DNA of 64,000 nt, from positions 1,240,001-1,304,000 of the forward strand of contig NZ_CP049872.1 in the NCBI RefSeq assembly GCF_011302915.1, in the 5' to 3' direction. Position numbers and translations under genes: made by a program. How positions within the stretch are numbered: the first letter of the stretch is position 1; each line of letters starts with the position of its first letter. The notes under the pieces were generated by a model. It ran no database searches, was not told the DNA's origin, and was given only the letters and a program-made list of their open reading frames with translations. Below, one piece after another: positions 1,700 to 61,000 of this stretch. Source of the stretch: Thermomonas sp. HDW16 (GTDB lineage Bacteria; Pseudomonadota; Gammaproteobacteria; Xanthomonadales; Xanthomonadaceae).

Positions 1700-4344
1700 G
1701 CACGCAGGCGGCAGCCGATCCGCACGCGGTTCCGGCTGAGCTGCCCGCCGGCCCCGAAGGCGATGCCGACTGGGCCGCCGCAAGCCGCGCCTCTCTCGCA
1801 CAGACCGATGCAAGGCTTGCGAGCCGTTTCGATGGCGGCGAAGCCGTCGACAAGCTCGTGGCCCTGCGCACGCGCGCGGCCGATGCACTGATCCTCGAGG
1901 CCTGGCAGCGCTGCATCACCACCGACGAAGGCGGGCCCGATGCCGGACTCGCCTTGTTCGCGGTGGGCGGTTACGGCCGTGGCGAATTGTTCCCGCATTC
2001 CGACATCGACCTGCTGGTACTGGCCGAAAGCGATGTGCAGCAGGCGCAGCAGCCCGCGTTGGCGCGCTTCCTTGCAGTGCTTTGGGATGCAGGCTTGCAG
2101 GCCAGCCAGGCGGTGCGTTCAGTCGCGCAATGCACGGAAGCCGCCGCCGACCAGACCGTGTTGACCGCGTTGATGGAAGCGCGTGCCCTGGTCGCGGATG
2201 AGGCCGCGCAAGGGCGGTTGCGCGATGCGATCTCGCCCGAACGCATCTGGTCGGCGCGCGCCTACTTCGAGGCGAAAGTGCAGGAGCAGGCGCAGCGCCA
2301 CGCGCGCTTCGGCGATACCAGCGACAACCTGGAACCCAACCTCAAGGACGGCCCCGGCGGCCTGCGCGACCTGCAGATGCTGGGCTGGATGGCGCTGCGC
2401 AGTTTCGGCGTGCGCGAGCTGGATCCGTTGGTGGGTCTCGATCACCTCGGTGCCGATGAAGCCGTGGCGCTGGATCGCGAACGCCGCGCGCTTGGCCGCC
2501 TGCGCTTCGGCCTGCACCTGGTCGCCGGGCGGCGCGAAGAGCGGCTGCGTTTCGATTACCAGAAGCTGCTGGCCGAACGCCTCGGTTACCTCGACGATGC
2601 CGATTCGCTCGGCGTCGAGAAAATGATGCAGGGCTTCTACCGCAGCGCGGCGATCGTGCGGCGGGTCAACGATCGCTTGCTGCAGCGTTTCGAGGAGCAT
2701 TTCGATGGCGCCGCCGAGCCGCAACTGCTCGACGGCAATCTGGAATTGCGCCGCGGCTATCTCTCCATCCGCAAGCCGGGTTGGTTGATCGAGGACGCCG
2801 CGCATGTGTTCGCGCTGTTCGCCGCCTGGGCGGCCGATCCCGGTTTGCGCGGCCTGCATTCGCAGACGGCGCGGGAACTCGCGCGCGCGTTGCCGGGTAT
2901 CCCGCGCTACGCGAAGGCTACGCCGCAGTTGCGCGCGGACTTCATGCAATTGTTGCGCGGCCCGCAACCGGTGAAGACGCTGGAGCGGATGGCCCGGCTT
3001 GGCGTGCTTGGGCATTGGATTCCGGCCTTCGCGCAGGTCTCCGGGCGCATGCAATTCGACCTGTTCCACGTCTACACCGTCGACCAGCACACGCTGGCGG
3101 TGCTGCGCAACCTGGCGGCGTTCGCGTCCGGCGAGCCGAACGAACGATTCTCGGTCGCACACACCGTGTGGCCGTCGCTGCGCAAGCCGGAGTTGTTGCT
3201 GCTCGCCGGCCTGTTCCACGACATCGGCAAGGGTCGCGGCGGCGATCATTCGGAACTCGGTGCAGTGGATGCGCGCGAATTCTGCACGGCGATGGGCCTG
3301 TCCGAGGCCGATACCGCGTTGGTCGAATGGCTGGTGCGCAAGCACCTGCTGATGTCGGTGACCGCGCAGAAGCAGGACATCACCGATCCCGAGGTGATCC
3401 ATCGCTTCGCGGCCATCGTCGAGGATCGTCAGCGCCTCGATTACCTCTACCTGCTGACTTGCGCGGACATCGCCGGCACCTCGCCAAAGCTGTGGAATGC
3501 GTGGAAGGATCGCCTGCTGGCCGATCTGCACACAGCCACGCGCCTCGCGTTGCGTCGCGGCCTAGAACATCCGGTCGCCGCCGATGAACGCATCGACGAG
3601 AACCGCGCCGCGGCACGCGCATTGCTGGTCGCCGAAGGCCACGACGACGATAGCGCCATCGACGCGATCTTCGCGCGCATGCCACGCGACAACTTCCTGC
3701 GCAGCCGGCCGGAGCAGATCGTCTGGCAGGCGAATGCCTTGCGCGATGCCGCTCACGGTGCGGTCGTCACCCATGCGCGGCAACTGCCCGGCGGTGGCCA
3801 TGAAGTGCTGGTGCATGCGCCGGATCGCGATGGCCTGTTTGCGGCGATCGTGATTGCGCTCGACCGCGCCGGCCTGGCGATCCTGCAGGCGCGCGCGCTG
3901 GACGGTCCCGACGCGACGATTTTCGATACCTTCCACGTGTTGCCGAACGATCCGCGGCAAGCGCCGACGCCGGCGCAGATCGGAGCTGGCCTGCAGCGCA
4001 TGCTTGCTGGCGACCTGCGTCGCATGCAGCCCACGCGGCGCAGCCAGCCGCGCCACCTGCGTCATTTCCGCATCGCGCCGCAGGTAGCATTCGCTGTTGC
4101 CGAAAACGGACGCACCCTGGTCAGCATCGTCGGCAACGACCGCCCCGGCTTGCTGGCCGACGTGGCGCGCGCATTGCGCGAACAACGCCTGCGCGTGCAC
4201 GACGCGCGCATCGCCACCTTCGGCGAGCGTGCCGAGGACATGTTCCAGATCAGCGACGAGCACAATCGCCCGTTGCAAGACGACCACCAACGGCAAGCAC
4301 TGCGCGACGCGCTGCTGGCCGCACTCGACGGAGATTCAAGATGA
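1696..4344 (+). CDS. glnD: Bifunctional PII uridylyltransferase/uridylyl-removing enzyme
   Basis: Senses glutamine and adds or removes UMP on PII proteins, controlling nitrogen assimilation. The GTG at 1696 overlaps the stop of map and is chosen as start, giving 882 residues, close to the usual GlnD size; the frame stays open further upstream inside map, but that would be an unusual extension. Visible domains: nucleotidyltransferase motif GGYGRGEL...SDIDLL near residues 91-107, HD-phosphohydrolase motif LFHDIGKG near residue 508, and two C-terminal ACT domains beginning near residues 700 and 805 ([19 protein letters not shown]). It overlaps dapD by four bases (ATGA), so the two are translationally coupled. 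Confidence 0.97.
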
Positions 4345-5252
4345 GCCCCGCCAAGCCAAAGAAGAAAGCCGCCGCCGAAGCGCCGGCAAAGCCGTCGCGC
4401 GACGCCGCGCGCGCGGCAGAGATGGAGACGCTGCGTTTCGAGATCGAAAGCGCGTGGGAGCGGCGTGCGACGTTGACGCCGGAAGAACTTGAAGGTGCAA
4501 CGCGCCCGGCCGTCGAACGCGCCATCGAAGGGCTGGAGAAAGGCCAGCTGCGCGTTGCCGAACCGGATGGCAACGGCGGCTGGCAGGTCAACGAATGGCT
4601 GAAGAAGGCGGTGCTGCTGTATTTCCGCACCCAGGAAATGGAGCTGGTCGAAAGCTACCCGGCGCCGTTCTGGGACAAGGTGCCGGCGCGCTTTGCCGAG
4701 TTCGACGAGGCGGATTTCCGCAAGCTCGGCGTGCGCGTGGTGCCGGGTGCGATCGTCCGTGCGGGTAGCCATATCGGCAAGGACGTTGTGCTGATGCCGA
4801 GCTTCGTGAACATCGGTGCACATGTCGGCGAAGGCACCATGGTCGATACCTGGGCCACGGTCGGCAGTTGCGCGCAGATCGGCAAGCACTGCCATCTGTC
4901 CGGTGGCGCCGGCATCGGTGGCGTGCTGGAACCACTGCAGGCATCGCCGACGATCATCGAAGACCACTGCTTCATCGGCGCGCGTTCGGAAGTGGTGGAA
5001 GGTTTCGTGGTCGGCCATCACAGCGTGATCGGCATGGGCGTTTTCCTCGGCCAGAGCACGCGCGTCTACAACCGAGCCACTGGCGAGATCAGCTACGGCC
5101 GCGTGCCGCCATACAGCGTGGTCGTCTCCGGCCAGCTGCCCGCCGCCGATGGCAGTCATTCGCTGTACTGCGCGGTGATCGTCAAGCAAGTGGATGCAAA
5201 GACGCGCAGCAAGACCAGCATCAACGACCTGTTGCGTGGGTTGGCGGACTGA
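4341..5252 (+). CDS. dapD: Tetrahydrodipicolinate N-succinyltransferase
   Basis: Succinylates tetrahydrodipicolinate in the lysine/diaminopimelate pathway. The 303-residue protein has a Lys/Ala-rich N-terminal extension of about 30 residues relative to E. coli DapD, then the conserved helical part and the left-handed hexapeptide beta-helix ([53 protein letters not shown]). The start overlaps the glnD stop as ATGA. Its TGA overlaps the ATG of yffB by one base. It works in the same pathway as dapE two genes downstream, supporting a single map-to-dapE transcript. Confidence 0.96.
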
Positions 5253-5614: not shown

Positions 5615-6771
5615 GCGAAGTTCTCGCATTGACGAAGGAGTTGATCCTGCGCCCATCGGTGACGCCGGACGACGCCGGTTGTCAGGCGCTGATCGCCGAT
5701 CGCCTGCAGCGCGCGGGCTTCAGCATCGAACAGCTGCGCTTCGGCGAGGTCGACAACCTGTGGGCAACGCACGGTAGCGGCGATGGCCCGGTGTTGGTGC
5801 TGCTCGGGCACACCGACGTGGTGCCGTCCGGCCCGCGAGAGGCCTGGGCCAGCGATCCGTTCGTGCCCGAGGTGCGCGATGGCGTGCTCTACGGGCGCGG
5901 CGCGGCGGACATGAAGGGCAGCGTGGCGGCGTTCGTCATCGCGCTGGAACGCTTCGTGGCCGCGCATCCACAACATGCGGGCACGGTGGCGTTGCTGCTG
6001 ACGTCGGACGAAGAGGGCGATGCCATTGATGGCGTGCGCAAGGTCGCGGAGTTGTTCCGCGAGCGCGGCCAGCGCATCGACTGGTGCATCACCGGTGAAC
6101 CGTCATCGAAGGTGAAACTAGGCGATCTGCTGCGCGTCGGTCGGCGTGGCACCTTGTCCGCCACGCTGACGGTGAAGGGTATCCAGGGCCATGTGGCGTA
6201 TCCGGACAAGGCGCGCAACCCGATCCATCAGGCGCTGCCGGCATTGGCCGAGCTCGCATGGAAGCAGTGGGATGCGGGTTACGAAAGCTTCCCGCCAACC
6301 AGTCTGCAAATCAGTAATTTCAATGCCGGCACCGGCGCCAACAACGTGATCCCCGGCGAAGCGACGCTGCTGTTCAACCTGCGCTACAACCCGAATTGGA
6401 CTGCCGCGCAGCTGGAAGCGGAGTGCGAAACCCTGCTGCGCGATTACGGGCTTGAATTCGACATCCGCTGGCATCGCGGCGGTGAACCGTTCTACACGCC
6501 GGAAGGCCCGCTGCGCGAGGCTGCACGCGAGGTGCTGACGCAGTTCTCCGGTGCGCCGCCGGAAGAAAGCACCGGCGGCGGCACCTCGGATGCGCGCTTC
6601 ATCGCGCCGCTGGGCGCGCAATGCGTGGAGATCGGGCCGGTCAATGCCAGCATCCACAAGGTCGATGAGAACGTGAGCGTGGCTGATCTGGATGCCCTGC
6701 CGGATCTGTACCTGGCCCTGCTCGAACGGTTGCTGGCGCAACCGTTGCGCGATGCCGATGCGGCGGGTTAA
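5611..6771 (+). CDS. dapE: Succinyl-diaminopimelate desuccinylase
   Basis: Zinc enzyme that hydrolyses N-succinyl-LL-diaminopimelate to LL-diaminopimelate and succinate. The GTG at 5611, overlapping the yffB stop, gives 386 residues, matching the family; the frame remains open upstream but that part lies in other genes. M20 metallopeptidase signatures are visible: [11 protein letters not shown] (His and Asp ligands), [25 protein letters not shown] (catalytic Glu pair) and [13 protein letters not shown] near the C-terminus. It is the last structural gene of the map operon; the asn leader ORF starts ten bases after its stop. Confidence 0.97.
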
Positions 6772-6780
6772 GGTCGAGCC

Positions 6781-6843
6781 ATGAGCTTCCAGCGTGCCAA
6801 CAATAATCGCAACAACGCCAGCCCCCCGCGGGTCGGCGATTAG
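6781..6843 (+). CDS. Putative asparagine leader peptide of asnB (20 aa)
   Basis: A 20-codon ORF from ATG 6781 to TAG 6841-6843, preceded by AAGG seven bases upstream. It encodes a peptide with core ANNNRNNA: five of twenty residues are asparagine (codons AAC AAT AAT CGC AAC AAC, 6799-6816). It is followed 28 bases later by a strong intrinsic terminator and then by asnB. This is the layout of his, leu and thr leader peptides, where ribosome stalling at scarce aminoacyl-tRNA favours an antiterminator. Function is inferred from composition and context; I do not know of an established asparagine leader in this family. Confidence 0.75.
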   Translation: MSFQRANNNRNNASPPRVGD

Positions 6844-6906
6844 CGCGCGCGTCACACGCTGATCTTCCCGAGGCCCGCACTGCAAAGTGCGGGCCTTTTC
6901 GTTTTT
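6828..6906 (+). terminator. Attenuator terminator with candidate antiterminator, upstream of asnB
   Basis: A 10-bp perfect stem, GGCCCGCACT (6872-6881) with AGTGCGGGCC (6886-6895), loop GCAA, followed by TTTTCGTTTTT: a textbook intrinsic terminator 33 bases before asnB. GCGGGTC (6828-6834), just after the Asn codons and inside the leader ORF, can pair over seven bases (one G-U) with GGCCCGC of the terminator's 5' arm (6872-6878). A ribosome stalled on the Asn codons leaves 6828-6834 free; one at the stop codon would mask it. The terminator is certain by inspection; the switching is inferred. Confidence 0.8.
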
Positions 6907-6938
6907 CCCTCCGAAACATCCCCTCAAGGACTTCCACG

Positions 6939-8624
6939 ATGTGCTCGATCCTCGGCGTCTTCGACCTCCGCCCCGGCGCGGACCTGCAACCCCTGCGGCC
7001 GCTGGCCTTGTCGCTGTCCGCGCGCCAGCGCCATCGCGGCCCGGACTGGAGCGGGGTGCACGTGGATGCGAATGCGCTGCTGGTGCACGAGCGCCTGGCC
7101 ATCGTCGATCCCGCCGGCGGCGCGCAGCCGATCCATTCCGCCGACGGCACGCTGGCGCTGGCGGTGAACGGCGAGATCTACAACCATCGCGAGCTCGAAC
7201 GTCGCCTGGCCAAGCCCTACGCGTTTCAGACCGGCTCCGATTGCGAGGTGGTCAACGCGCTGTACCGTGATGGCGAAGCCCCCGAAACCTGGCTGGGCCG
7301 GCTCAACGGCATCTTCGCTTTCGCCCTGTGGGATGCCGACGCCAAGCGCGTGCTGATCGCGCGCGACCACATGGGCATCTGCCCGCTGTACTGGGGCCAC
7401 GATGCCGACGGCCGGCTGTGGGTGGCGTCGGAAATGAAGTCACTGGTGCGCGTCTGCGACGACGTGGCCGCATTCCCGCCCGGCCATGTCTATGACAGCG
7501 CGACAGGCGAGCTGATCCATTGGTACAAACGCGCCTGGCGCGATTACGACGCGGTGCAGGGTGTCTCTGCCGACAAGGCCGAACTGCGTGAGGCCTTCGA
7601 GCGCGCCGTGCATCGGCAGATGATGAGCGACGTGCCGTATGGCGTGCTGCTCTCGGGCGGGCTGGATTCCTCGCTGGTCGCCGCGTGCGCGGCCAAATTT
7701 GCGCGCAAGCGGGTAGAGGACGATGACAAGGGCGAAGCCTGGTGGCCGCGCCTGCACAGCTTCGCCATCGGACTGGACGGTTCGCCGGATCTTGCCGCCG
7801 CGCAGATCGCTGCGGATGCGCTGGGCACGGTGCATCACGGCTTCACCTACAGCTTCGCCGAGGGGTTGGACGCGCTACCGGAAGTGATTCGCCATATCGA
7901 GACCTACGACGTCACCACGATTCGCGCATCCACGCCGATGTTCCTGCTGGCGCGGCGGATCAAGGCGATGGGGGTGAAGATGGTGCTCAGCGGCGAGGGC
8001 AGCGACGAGCTGTTCGGCGGCTACCTCTACTTCCACAAGGCGCCGAACGCGCGTGAATTCCACGATGAGCTGGTGCGCAAGCTGGATGCGCTGCACAGCT
8101 ACGATTGCCTGCGCGCCAACAAGTCGATGATGGCCTGGGGCGTGGAGCCGCGCGTGCCGTTCCTGGATGTCGAGTTCATGGACGTGGCGATGCGCATGGA
8201 CGCCAAGCACAAGATGAGCGGCGGCGGGAAAATCGAAAAATCGGTGCTGCGCGAGGCCTTCGAGGGTTATCTGCCGCAGGAAATCCTGTGGCGGCAGAAG
8301 GAGCAGTTCAGCGATGGCGTGGGCTATGGCTGGATCGATGGCTTGAAGGCGCAGGCCGAAGCGCAGGTGAGCGATGCGGATTTCGCTGCAGCCAGTCAGC
8401 GTTTCCCGATCAACGCGCCGCAGACCAAGGAAGCGTATTTCTATCGCCGCATCTTCGAGGAGATTTTCCCCGGCGAGGCCTGCGCGAACACGGTGCCGGG
8501 CGGCAAGTCGATCGCGTGTTCTTCGCCCGCTGCGATTGCGTGGGATGCGGCTTTCGCGACGATGGCCGATCCATCCGGGCGTGCGGTGGCCGGTGTGCAC
8601 AACGCGGCGGTGATGGCGCTCTAG
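6939..8624 (+). CDS. asnB: Asparagine synthetase B (glutamine-hydrolysing)
   Basis: Makes asparagine from aspartate, ATP and glutamine in the cytoplasm. The 561-residue protein starts MCSILG, exposing Cys2 as the class II glutaminase nucleophile, with the RGPDWSG and VNGEIYNH motifs following. The synthetase domain has the PPi loop LSGGLDSS near residues 237-244 and SGEGSDELFGGYLYF. AAGGA lies ten bases before the ATG. Upstream are the Asn leader peptide and terminator, so expression is probably controlled by charged tRNA-Asn. The stop overlaps the convergent tpm stop by four bases. Confidence 0.97.
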   Translation: MCSILGVFDLRPGADLQPLRPLALSLSARQRHRGPDWSGVHVDANALLVHERLAIVDPAGGAQPIHSADGTLALAVNGEIYNHRELERRLAKPYAFQTGSDCEVVNALYRDGEAPETWLGRLNGIFAFALWDADAKRVLIARDHMGICPLYWGHDADGRLWVASEMKSLVRVCDDVAAFPPGHVYDSATGELIHWYKRAWRDYDAVQGVSADKAELREAFERAVHRQMMSDVPYGVLLSGGLDSSLVAACAAKFARKRVEDDDKGEAWWPRLHSFAIGLDGSPDLAAAQIAADALGTVHHGFTYSFAEGLDALPEVIRHIETYDVTTIRASTPMFLLARRIKAMGVKMVLSGEGSDELFGGYLYFHKAPNAREFHDELVRKLDALHSYDCLRANKSMMAWGVEPRVPFLDVEFMDVAMRMDAKHKMSGGGKIEKSVLREAFEGYLPQEILWRQKEQFSDGVGYGWIDGLKAQAEAQVSDADFAAASQRFPINAPQTKEAYFYRRIFEEIFPGEACANTVPGGKSIACSSPAAIAWDAAFATMADPSGRAVAGVHNAAVMAL

Positions 8625-59141: not shown

Positions 59142-60125
59142 TCAACCGCCGATGGTGGAGAGGTTGGGGACCAGGCCGGTTTCGCCCTCGTGCAGACGGT
59201 GGCCGATCGCCTTCAGGCCCAGCTGTGCCTGCAGCGCGGCGGCAAGCCGGTCGCAATCGGCATCGTCCTGCAGCCACGGCCGCAACGGGATGCCCACGTT
59301 GCCGAACAGGCATAGCCGCAGATCGCCGGTATGGGTGACGCGCAGGCGGTTGCAGCCGGCGCAGAAGTCGTTGGAGTAGGGCGCGATCACGCCGATCCGT
59401 CCGGCAAAATCCGGATGCGCGTACTCGCGCGCCGGGCCGGCATCGGGCGCGCGCTGCAACAGCTGCCAGCCGGTGGCTTGCAGGTTGGCCTCCAGCGTTT
59501 CGGCGCGCAGGTGGTGGCGTTCGAAATAGGCCAGGTTGTCGCCGGTGCGCATCAGTTCGATGAAGCGCACGGTGACGTCGCGTTCGCGCAGGTAGTCGAA
59601 CCACTGCGGCAGCAGGTCGTCGTTCAGGCCCTTCAGCAGCACGGCGTTGAGCTTGATCGCCTTGAAGCCCAGTCCCTGCGCCAGCTCGATCCCGCGCAGG
59701 ATTTCGTCCAGCCGGTCGTGGCCGGTGATGGCGTGGAAGCGCTCGCGTTCCAGCGCGTCCACGCTGATGTTGAGGTTGGTCAGGCCGGCCTGACGCCAGC
59801 GCGCCACCCGGCGGTCCAGCAGAGTGCCGTTAGTGGTGAGGGCGATGCTGTCGATGCTGCCCACGGCTGCTGCCGAAGCGATGATTTCCGGCAGGTCGCG
59901 GCGCAGGCTGGGCTCGCCGCCGGTCAGCCGCAGCTTGCGCAGGCCCACGCTGGCGAAGCCGCGCAGCAGGCGGGCGATTTCCTCGCGGGTGAGCGGCATC
60001 GGGCGCCCGGCGCGGGCATGGAAACCGTCCGGCAGGCAGTAGCTGCAGTGGAAGTTGCAGGCTTCGATCACCGACAGCCGCAAATACGGGAAGGCCCGGC
60101 CAAACCGGTCCTGCAAAACCGACAT
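59142..60125 (-). CDS. moaA: GTP 3',8-cyclase
   Basis: Radical SAM enzyme for the first step of molybdenum cofactor synthesis. The 327-residue product from ATG 60125 has the N-terminal cluster motif CNFHCSYC (Cys23, Cys27, Cys30), LRLTGGEPSLRRDL, the C-terminal second cluster in FCAGCNRLRVTHTGDLRLC, and the essential C-terminal GG (STIGG). AAGGAG precedes the ATG. It heads moaA-moaCB-moeA-moaD-moaE; a 128-base structured leader and a perfect FNR box lie upstream. Confidence 0.96.
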   Translation of the reverse strand: MSVLQDRFGRAFPYLRLSVIEACNFHCSYCLPDGFHARAGRPMPLTREEIARLLRGFASVGLRKLRLTGGEPSLRRDLPEIIASAAAVGSIDSIALTTNGTLLDRRVARWRQAGLTNLNISVDALERERFHAITGHDRLDEILRGIELAQGLGFKAIKLNAVLLKGLNDDLLPQWFDYLRERDVTVRFIELMRTGDNLAYFERHHLRAETLEANLQATGWQLLQRAPDAGPAREYAHPDFAGRIGVIAPYSNDFCAGCNRLRVTHTGDLRLCLFGNVGIPLRPWLQDDADCDRLAAALQAQLGLKAIGHRLHEGETGLVPNLSTIGG

Positions 60126-60253
60126 CTGTTGTGCTCCTTTCCAAACGCGGGCGGCAACACCGTTTCCAGCGGTGCCGGGTGGCGGAAACCGCCACGGTCG
60201 GCGGCCATGCCCGAAAGCGAAGGCCGTGCGACTCGGAGTGCAGCCTGGGCTGC
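60126..60253 (-). promoter_or_regulatory. Structured 5' leader of moaA, candidate Moco riboswitch
   Basis: The leader folds locally: GCAGCC/GGCTGC right after the predicted start, GTGGCGG/CCGCCAC with a three-base loop, and GGCA..CCG/CGG..TGCC just before a purine-rich GGAAAGGAGC ribosome binding site. Size and the last hairpin with the following GCCCG-x5-GGAAAGG recall the Moco RNA motif of E. coli moaA. The match was made by eye and is tentative. Confidence 0.35.
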
Positions 60254-60913: not shown

Positions 60914-61000
60914 TGGTGCCCGGGAGAGGACTCGAACCTCCACGAAGTTGCCCCCGCTAGCACCTGAAGCTAGTGCGTCTACCAATTCCGCCACCCGGGC
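60914..61000 (-). tRNA. tRNA-Leu(CAG)
   Basis: An 87-base tRNA: acceptor GCCCGGG/CCCGGGC, discriminator A and encoded CCA; D arm GGCGGAATTGGTAGACGC; anticodon arm CTAGC-TTCAGGT-GCTAG with anticodon CAG; a long variable arm GGGGGCAACTTC, and T arm GGTTCGAGTCC. Long variable arm and size are those of tRNA-Leu. Confidence 0.97.

Follow-up and report, generated by a model that had tools for sequence, protein, structure and literature searches.

A probable asparagine-sensing leader-peptide attenuator upstream of asnB, conserved among relatives of Thermomonas and probably leaderless

The window, meaning the whole analysed stretch of 64,000 nucleotides from Thermomonas sp. HDW16, contains in order dapD, a small ArsC/Spx-like gene and dapE (names from NCBIfam), followed about 10 bases 3' of the dapE stop codon by a short leader open reading frame (ORF) with five Asn codons, at 6799-6807 and 6811-6816. 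After a further 28 bases past the leader ORF a GC-rich terminator hairpin of 10 perfect pairs begins, and then come the Shine-Dalgarno sequence of asnB and asnB itself. The initial annotation had described a 20-codon ORF with an NNNRNN run, a 10-bp terminator with a U-tract and asnB behind it, all of which are present. The features of the locus, including the predicted promoter and RNA strands, are as follows.

4341-5252: dapD (NCBIfam)
ending at 6771: dapE (NCBIfam), with its stop codon TAA at 6769-6771
6745-6750, plus strand: predicted -35 box TTGCGC, within the 3'-terminal part of dapE and 36 bases before the leader ATG, supported by the TTGC spacing in relatives
6769-6774, plus strand: predicted -10 box TAAGGT, overlapping the dapE stop TAA, the best -10-like hexamer by spacing
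6781, plus strand: predicted transcription start, the A of the leader AUG or perhaps a base or two off, suggested by promoter spacing and Shine-Dalgarno counts
6781-6843, plus strand: leader peptide ORF of 20 codons, translating to MSFQRANNNRNNASPPRVGD and a stop, with an Asn-rich ORF at the same place in relatives
6799-6816, plus strand: candidate regulatory codons AAC AAT AAT CGC AAC AAC (N N N R N N), distinguished by their codon use
6817-6824, plus strand: putative strand 1 of a 1:2 hairpin, pairing with 6830-6837 (fold of -11.6 kcal/mol, weak against shuffles)
6828-6836, plus strand: putative strand 2, the 5' strand of the antiterminator, pairing with strand 3 (fold of 6828-6881; pair changes G-C to A-U and C-G to U-A)
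6838-6864, plus strand: predicted linker stem 6838-6845/6857-6864 inside the antiterminator, including the leader stop codon (folds)
6872-6881, plus strand: strand 3, the terminator 5' arm GGCCCGCACT, shared with the predicted antiterminator (sequence, fold, covariation)
6886-6906, plus strand: strand 4, the terminator 3' arm AGTGCGGGCC (6886-6895) and U-tract TTTTCGTTTTT (sequence, covariation)
6926-6930, plus strand: Shine-Dalgarno sequence AAGGA of asnB
6939-8624, plus strand: asnB, glutamine-dependent asparagine synthetase and putative regulated gene (NF006949 asparagine synthase B, 861.7 bits; NF006949 and TIGR01536 both above cut-off)

The genome contains a single full-length match to the AsnB of the window, asnA was not found in it and asnS was found, so the level of charged tRNA-Asn should depend on asparagine supply, and asnB fits as the target of an asparagine-sensing switch. 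The pattern AsnAsn-x-AsnAsn, sought at the DNA level in all frames of both strands, occurs at three sites in the 2.8-Mb genome, one of them the leader, while the reversed control pattern occurs at one. No Asn-rich ORF was found in the 400 bases 5' of the asnS match or in the 520 bases 5' of the nearest AsnB paralogue of the same genome. This paralogue, an AsnB-like protein of 629 amino acids (L082 91-1980, minus strand), matches best as a lasso peptide isopeptide bond-forming cyclase (NCBIfam NF033535), at 403 bits below the cut-off of 525, and is possibly part of a lasso peptide cluster.

Comparison with relatives gives strong support to the proposed reading. Among the 80 AsnB loci found in the genome_contigs set, 41 have a short upstream ORF with at least three Asn in eight codons, 36 of them with at least four; 40 of the 41 are titled as members of the order, including Xanthomonas, Stenotrophomonas, Lysobacter, Rhodanobacter and Dyella, and one (L024) is titled Pseudomonadota only. 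Of 151 genomes drawn evenly from the order, 90 had an AsnB match at 1e-100, and 47 of these belong to families f1, f2 and f12. The initial annotation held that its proposal would fall if relatives kept asnB while losing the Asn run or its frame; at least four Asn in eight codons are retained in 42 of the 47 genomes, three Asn in another three, and two genomes are without. By family, the higher level is reached in 21 of 24 genomes of f1 (three Asn in two more), in 18 of 20 of f12 (three Asn in one more) and in 3/3 of f2, and the two leader-less genomes, one each in f1 and f12, carry divergent AsnB proteins (64% and 65% identical, respectively). Elsewhere in the order such a leader is nearly absent (1/21 in f7 and 0/19 in f9, together 1/40 AsnB genomes; 0/1 each in f4, f5 and f10). 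Dinucleotide shuffles of the upstream regions (n=3400) reach at least four Asn in 0.5% of cases and at least three in 6.6%.

A general association of such leaders with AsnB was rejected, since of the 39 genome_contigs loci outside the leader group six reach three Asn in eight codons, two of which (L051, L069) reach four and the rest (L052, L072, L075, L078) three. L051 and L069 have no terminator by the strict hairpin rule, L052, L072 and L075 have weak hairpins, and L078 has a strong one (-15.2) close behind its ORF; all six ORFs are read as chance occurrences in AT-rich DNA. They were subtracted from the unique upstream regions with at least three Asn in eight codons (91/170; 2 duplicates removed) to leave the 85 leader loci analysed below. 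The single f7 leader (L151), MFAIYNTINTTNNRLLRSAGSF, stands with a terminator 5' of a 64% identical AsnB, the other 20 of 21 sampled f7 genomes being without a leader, and may reflect retention, transfer or a second origin. Three further loci (L018, L020, L031), on contigs labelled Rhodococcus, Holophagales and Deltaproteobacteria, encode AsnB proteins 74-80% identical to that of the window and have no leader; either the gene moved without it or the contigs are misassigned.

Across the leader loci the N-terminal half of the peptide varies freely, both in its residues and in how long it is (peptides of 20 to 43 residues among 81 loci), while the Asn run is kept, with AAC and AAT both in use. 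Judged by this sequence comparison, the ORF behaves as a peptide-coding leader. Codon choice in the run is distinctive, as AAT accounts for 242 of 464 Asn codons (52%) when the final 21 codons of each of the 85 leaders are counted, compared with 56 of 350 (16%) in asnB genes (the asnB of the window and those of leader loci among the 80 genome_contigs loci; Fisher p 2e-27). Use of the less frequent AAT may make the response sharper or help to keep the run free of structure. The attenuation model of PMC1183508 also gives weight to codon choice, but there on account of separate isoacceptor tRNAs.

The upstream neighbourhood is far less constant than the leader. The initial annotation spoke of a dapE-asnB spacer, but dapE proved to be a variable neighbour. 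For 67 leader loci at least 1200 bases of upstream sequence were available; the end of dapE falls no more than 200 bases from the leader in 12 of them, dapE is found at a greater distance upstream in 11, and none was seen in the sequence covered in the other 44. The asnB leader arrangement is not owed to the upstream gene. Where dapE lies directly upstream, as in the window, the terminator may also end dapE transcripts.

A strong hairpin follows the leader in all 85 loci, accompanied by a T-tract under the strict rule in 70, the remaining 15 having been accepted under a relaxed rule that demands no T-tract (L004 and L005 have no clear one). In the window the terminator (6869-6898) folds at -24.9 kcal/mol with a z of -6.8. 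Folding for mutually exclusive structures, a check put forward in the initial annotation, yielded an antiterminator at -25.9 kcal/mol beside this terminator. The specific pairing named there, of GCGGGTC (6828-6834) with GGCCCGC (6872-6878), is possible and has comparative support, but in the window alone it is no better than chance, 20 of 100 shuffles being as good, so comparative evidence is needed. Over the 85 loci the 2:3 duplex averages -21.2 kcal/mol, against -14.6 kcal/mol once the codon regions are shuffled. In 54 loci no more than 5 of 100 shuffles match the real duplex, a level missed in 31, the window among them. The two largest strand-3 types each pair best with their own strand 2, namely GGCCCGC in 37 Rhodanobacter/Dyella-like loci (-21.2) and CCCGCATCG in 23 Xanthomonas/Stenotrophomonas-like loci (-23.4), while the three smaller types give one tie, one slight preference for the own strand and, in a mixed rest, a preference for others.

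Covariation was assessed in an alignment (A1) of 11 Lysobacter-like loci of the 85. Changes on both sides of a pair number two in the antiterminator, three in the terminator and one in the 1:2 hairpin, and 88%, 95% and 99% (98.7%) of cells, respectively, are paired, compared with 17 to 57% when the structures are slid along the alignment by 1 to 3 columns. Of 500 shuffles, 4, 0 and 22 reach the covariation score of the same three helices, and 40, 23 and 309 reach their count of both-side changes, so the 1:2 hairpin is weakly supported. Kinship alone can lift sequences above shuffles, and weight is therefore placed on compensations and slid controls. The clearest compensation is found in L001 and L092, where strand 3 changes from GGCCCGC to GGCCTGC and strand 2 from CGCGGGCC to CGCAGGCC; the C to T in strand 3 and the G to A in strand 2 together restore a Watson-Crick pair in the antiterminator, and the terminator is left with G-U. 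In groups other than the Lysobacter-like one a stable fold is likewise predicted in the 1:2 region.

According to duplex and minimum-energy models, which are the RNA models used throughout, the free RNA before strand 4 averages -22.8 and the terminator -21.8 across the 85 loci. Strand 3 is paired to the leader at six or more positions in 80 of 85 free-RNA folds, and 46 of the 85 folds of the free antiterminator region have a z no higher than -1.65. With terminator and antiterminator so close in stability, part of the switching has to be kinetic, and the ribosome could decide between the folds, as it does in known attenuators. In a geometric model that places the ribosome front edge 13 bases past the first base of the A-site codon and counts a free 2:3 duplex at -12 kcal/mol or better, a ribosome stalled where the Asn run ends permits such a duplex in 83 of 85 loci and one with the stop codon in its A site in 0 of 85, a result partly built in, as strand 2 sits between the Asn run and the stop, where the mechanism needs it. 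Loci of the Stenotrophomonas type have a strand 2 that stops 16-19 bases short of the last base of the stop codon, so a ribosome sitting on that codon may cover the strand incompletely.

In the window TTGCGC is followed after 18 bases by TAAGGT and after a further 6 bases by the ATG. In 81 of 85 loci TTGC begins 35-38 bases 5' of a leader ATG that is in frame, a pattern spotted by eye and then counted, hence post-hoc, with the ATG at the right distance taken where several in-frame ATGs exist. Two of the other four (L034, with a GTG start, and L101) have TTG at that place, giving 83 of 85; L044 and L151 remain, the latter with no TTG at the usual promoter position. TTGC starts at -36 in 38 loci and at -35 in 33, compared with a mean of 0.48 for other offsets (including 15 at -51 and 9 at -50). 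With the best of spacers from 16 to 19 chosen, the best -10-like hexamer falls 17-18 bases past TTGC in 68 of 69 representatives, 5-9 bases before the ATG, and is weakly conserved, no column exceeding about 0.5 bit in an alignment anchored at the ATG. A sigma-70 scan with strict settings gave no promoter between 6500 and 6945, and the boxes differ from the E. coli consensus. Leader starts are preceded by a Shine-Dalgarno match of at least four bases in 20 of 81 cases, as often as control windows (24%, n=323), and asnB starts in 77 of 81. The letters AAGG at 6770-6773, read in the initial annotation as the leader's own ribosome site, are indeed there; given the fixed TTG spacing and the lack of a Shine-Dalgarno excess at leader starts, they are probably part of the -10 box TAAGGT rather than a ribosome binding site, and the leader mRNA is probably leaderless, starting at or next to the leader AUG.

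Thr and Ilv leaders of the same family have a similar promoter spacing. Thr leaders were recognised in 6 of 9 regions taken, their places being estimated, and Ilv leaders in 6 of 17 ilvC loci, with none in the other regions under the rule used. TTGA lies 36-38 bases before an in-frame ATG in 12 of 12 Thr and Ilv leaders of a separate set from the same family, including those of the Thermomonas genome itself. The Thr-rich leader ORFs (L277, in the own genome at C1:2048300-2049300, reading MSRRLTTTTTITGTGTTPVRSVMPG, and L278-L282) have TTGACA 36-38 bases before an in-frame ATG and are probably leaderless Thr attenuators. The Ilv leader ORFs (L239 at the own ilvC locus, reading MLHRRTSLTPTTTASAAASVLVLVLITSPTGAGRSGA, and L233, L235, L237, L241 and L244) have TTGACA 36-37 bases before the ATG. 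A His leader 5' of hisG, sought in 25 genomes as a positive control, gave one clear case (L228) and one unlikely case (L214); the former, in family f8, reads MNINLIALHHHHHHFIMDGAC and has TTGACA about 35 bases before its ATG. The leaderless build may thus be usual for attenuators here. It appears fairly likely that the Asn, Thr and Ilv attenuators of Lysobacterales form a leaderless class in which the AUG would be the first RNA base, a ribosome would have to bind the 5' end of the RNA while this emerges from the polymerase, with coupling at once, and leaderless initiation rather than a Shine-Dalgarno sequence would set attenuation, the Asn member sensing tRNA-Asn.

Alternative explanations have been weighed against this evidence. 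The hairpin might be the plain intrinsic terminator of a dapD-arsC-dapE operon, with an Asn-rich ORF arising by chance, a reading suggested in the window by the leader lying about 10 bases past dapE with the terminator next and the three genes preceding. However, leader and hairpin stay with asnB where dapE is only a variable neighbour (directly upstream in 12 of 67 loci), such an ORF arises in 0.5% of shuffles, and strand 2 compensates for changes in strand 3, which a plain terminator would not need; this explanation is rejected as extremely unlikely. Mutually exclusive hairpins would also suit attenuation by an RNA whose signal is not the reading of Asn codons by a ribosome (a T-box, a riboswitch or an RNA-binding protein), for which the ORF would be incidental. 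Here, by contrast, the conserved feature is in-frame Asn content written with both AAC and AAT, and at gathering thresholds no Rfam family matches 6745-6939, the only two matches in the window being elsewhere, so a T-box or riboswitch is rejected and a mechanism of this kind is exceedingly improbable. The two matches, both on the minus strand, are a Molybdenum cofactor riboswitch (RF01055, 58.6 bits, 60118-60250) and a tRNA-Leu (cag) (60914-61000).

Translation of the Asn run might instead act on asnB by another route, such as Rho-dependent termination, translational coupling or a peptide acting in trans. The conserved reading frame would accord with this, and a trans role has been reported for a Trp leader peptide (PMC7298713); yet 70 of 85 loci have a strong hairpin with a T-tract in this position, and the peptide varies in length and lacks conservation in its N-terminal half, which makes such a route very unlikely. 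Four attenuator features are found by sequence and model, namely the Asn-codon-rich ORF, the terminator, the compensating antiterminator and the stall/stop geometry. Leader, hairpin and compensating antiterminator are retained across three families, which speaks for the attenuator proposed in the initial annotation. In all likelihood, asnB is governed here by transcription attenuation of the ribosome-mediated type, with charged tRNA-Asn as the signal.

From this anatomy, conservation and covariation we infer ribosome stalling, termination and a response to asparagine. Transcription would start at the leader AUG or a base or two from it, and a ribosome would load on the leaderless AUG and trail RNA polymerase. 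When Asn-tRNA is ample, the ribosome would clear NNNRNN, reach the stop codon and cover strand 2, whereupon strands 3 and 4 would form the terminator and asnB would be off. When Asn-tRNA is scarce, it would stall on the Asn run and leave strand 2 free to pair with the emerging strand 3, blocking the terminator and allowing asnB to be read. Without translation, the 1:2 hairpin would hold strand 2, making termination the default.

The locus thus very probably represents a conserved asparagine attenuator of asnB, of a known kind, in which the amino acid is new and the start, probably leaderless, is out of the ordinary. On this reading, asparagine would join the amino acids sensed by leader-peptide attenuation, and a conserved circuit controlling asparagine synthesis would extend over a large group including Xanthomonas, Stenotrophomonas, Lysobacter, Rhodanobacter and Dyella. 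Attenuation on leaderless mRNAs is also suggested for this group and, if true, would make step-keeping of ribosome and polymerase from a leaderless start directly testable. We know of no report of asparagine being read by leader-peptide attenuation. As in the initial annotation, which knew of none, no description of an asparagine-specific leader-peptide attenuator was found in the open-access literature searched. The terms asparagin- and asnB are absent from the main text of PMC2965389, a survey of premature terminators, and from the main text of PMC1262725 on Actinobacteria by word search.

Several known systems offer points of comparison, in which either the signal or the architecture is shared. 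T-box control of asparagine genes in Firmicutes likewise senses tRNA-Asn charging, but there the RNA binds the tRNA directly and there is no leader peptide, whereas the present locus has no Rfam match. In E. coli, AsnC controls asnA, so that asparagine again governs a synthetase gene; AsnC, however, is a DNA-binding protein, and asnA was not found in the genome studied here. Classical ribosome-mediated attenuators control the his, thr, leu, ilv, trp and phe operons in Proteobacteria. The design of the trp and his attenuators is described in PMC1183508. The candidate asnB attenuator shares with the classical ones a short leader ORF rich in codons for the product amino acid, predicted 1:2, 2:3 and 3:4 helices and a terminator 5' of the biosynthetic gene, and differs in that asparagine would be sensed, asnB would be the target and the leader probably lacks a 5' UTR and ribosome site. 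For the leaderless build, the nearest parallel by analogy is provided by the cysteine-rich upstream ORFs of mycobacteria (Shell et al. 2015, PMC4633059). In both cases a codon cluster for one amino acid lies 5' of a gene of its metabolism and has been proposed as an attenuator, and the asnB leader differs in amino acid, phylum and gene and in the presence of a terminator/antiterminator pair. The leaderless start is reportedly also shared, later work being said to describe poly-Cys leaderless attenuators in mycobacteria.
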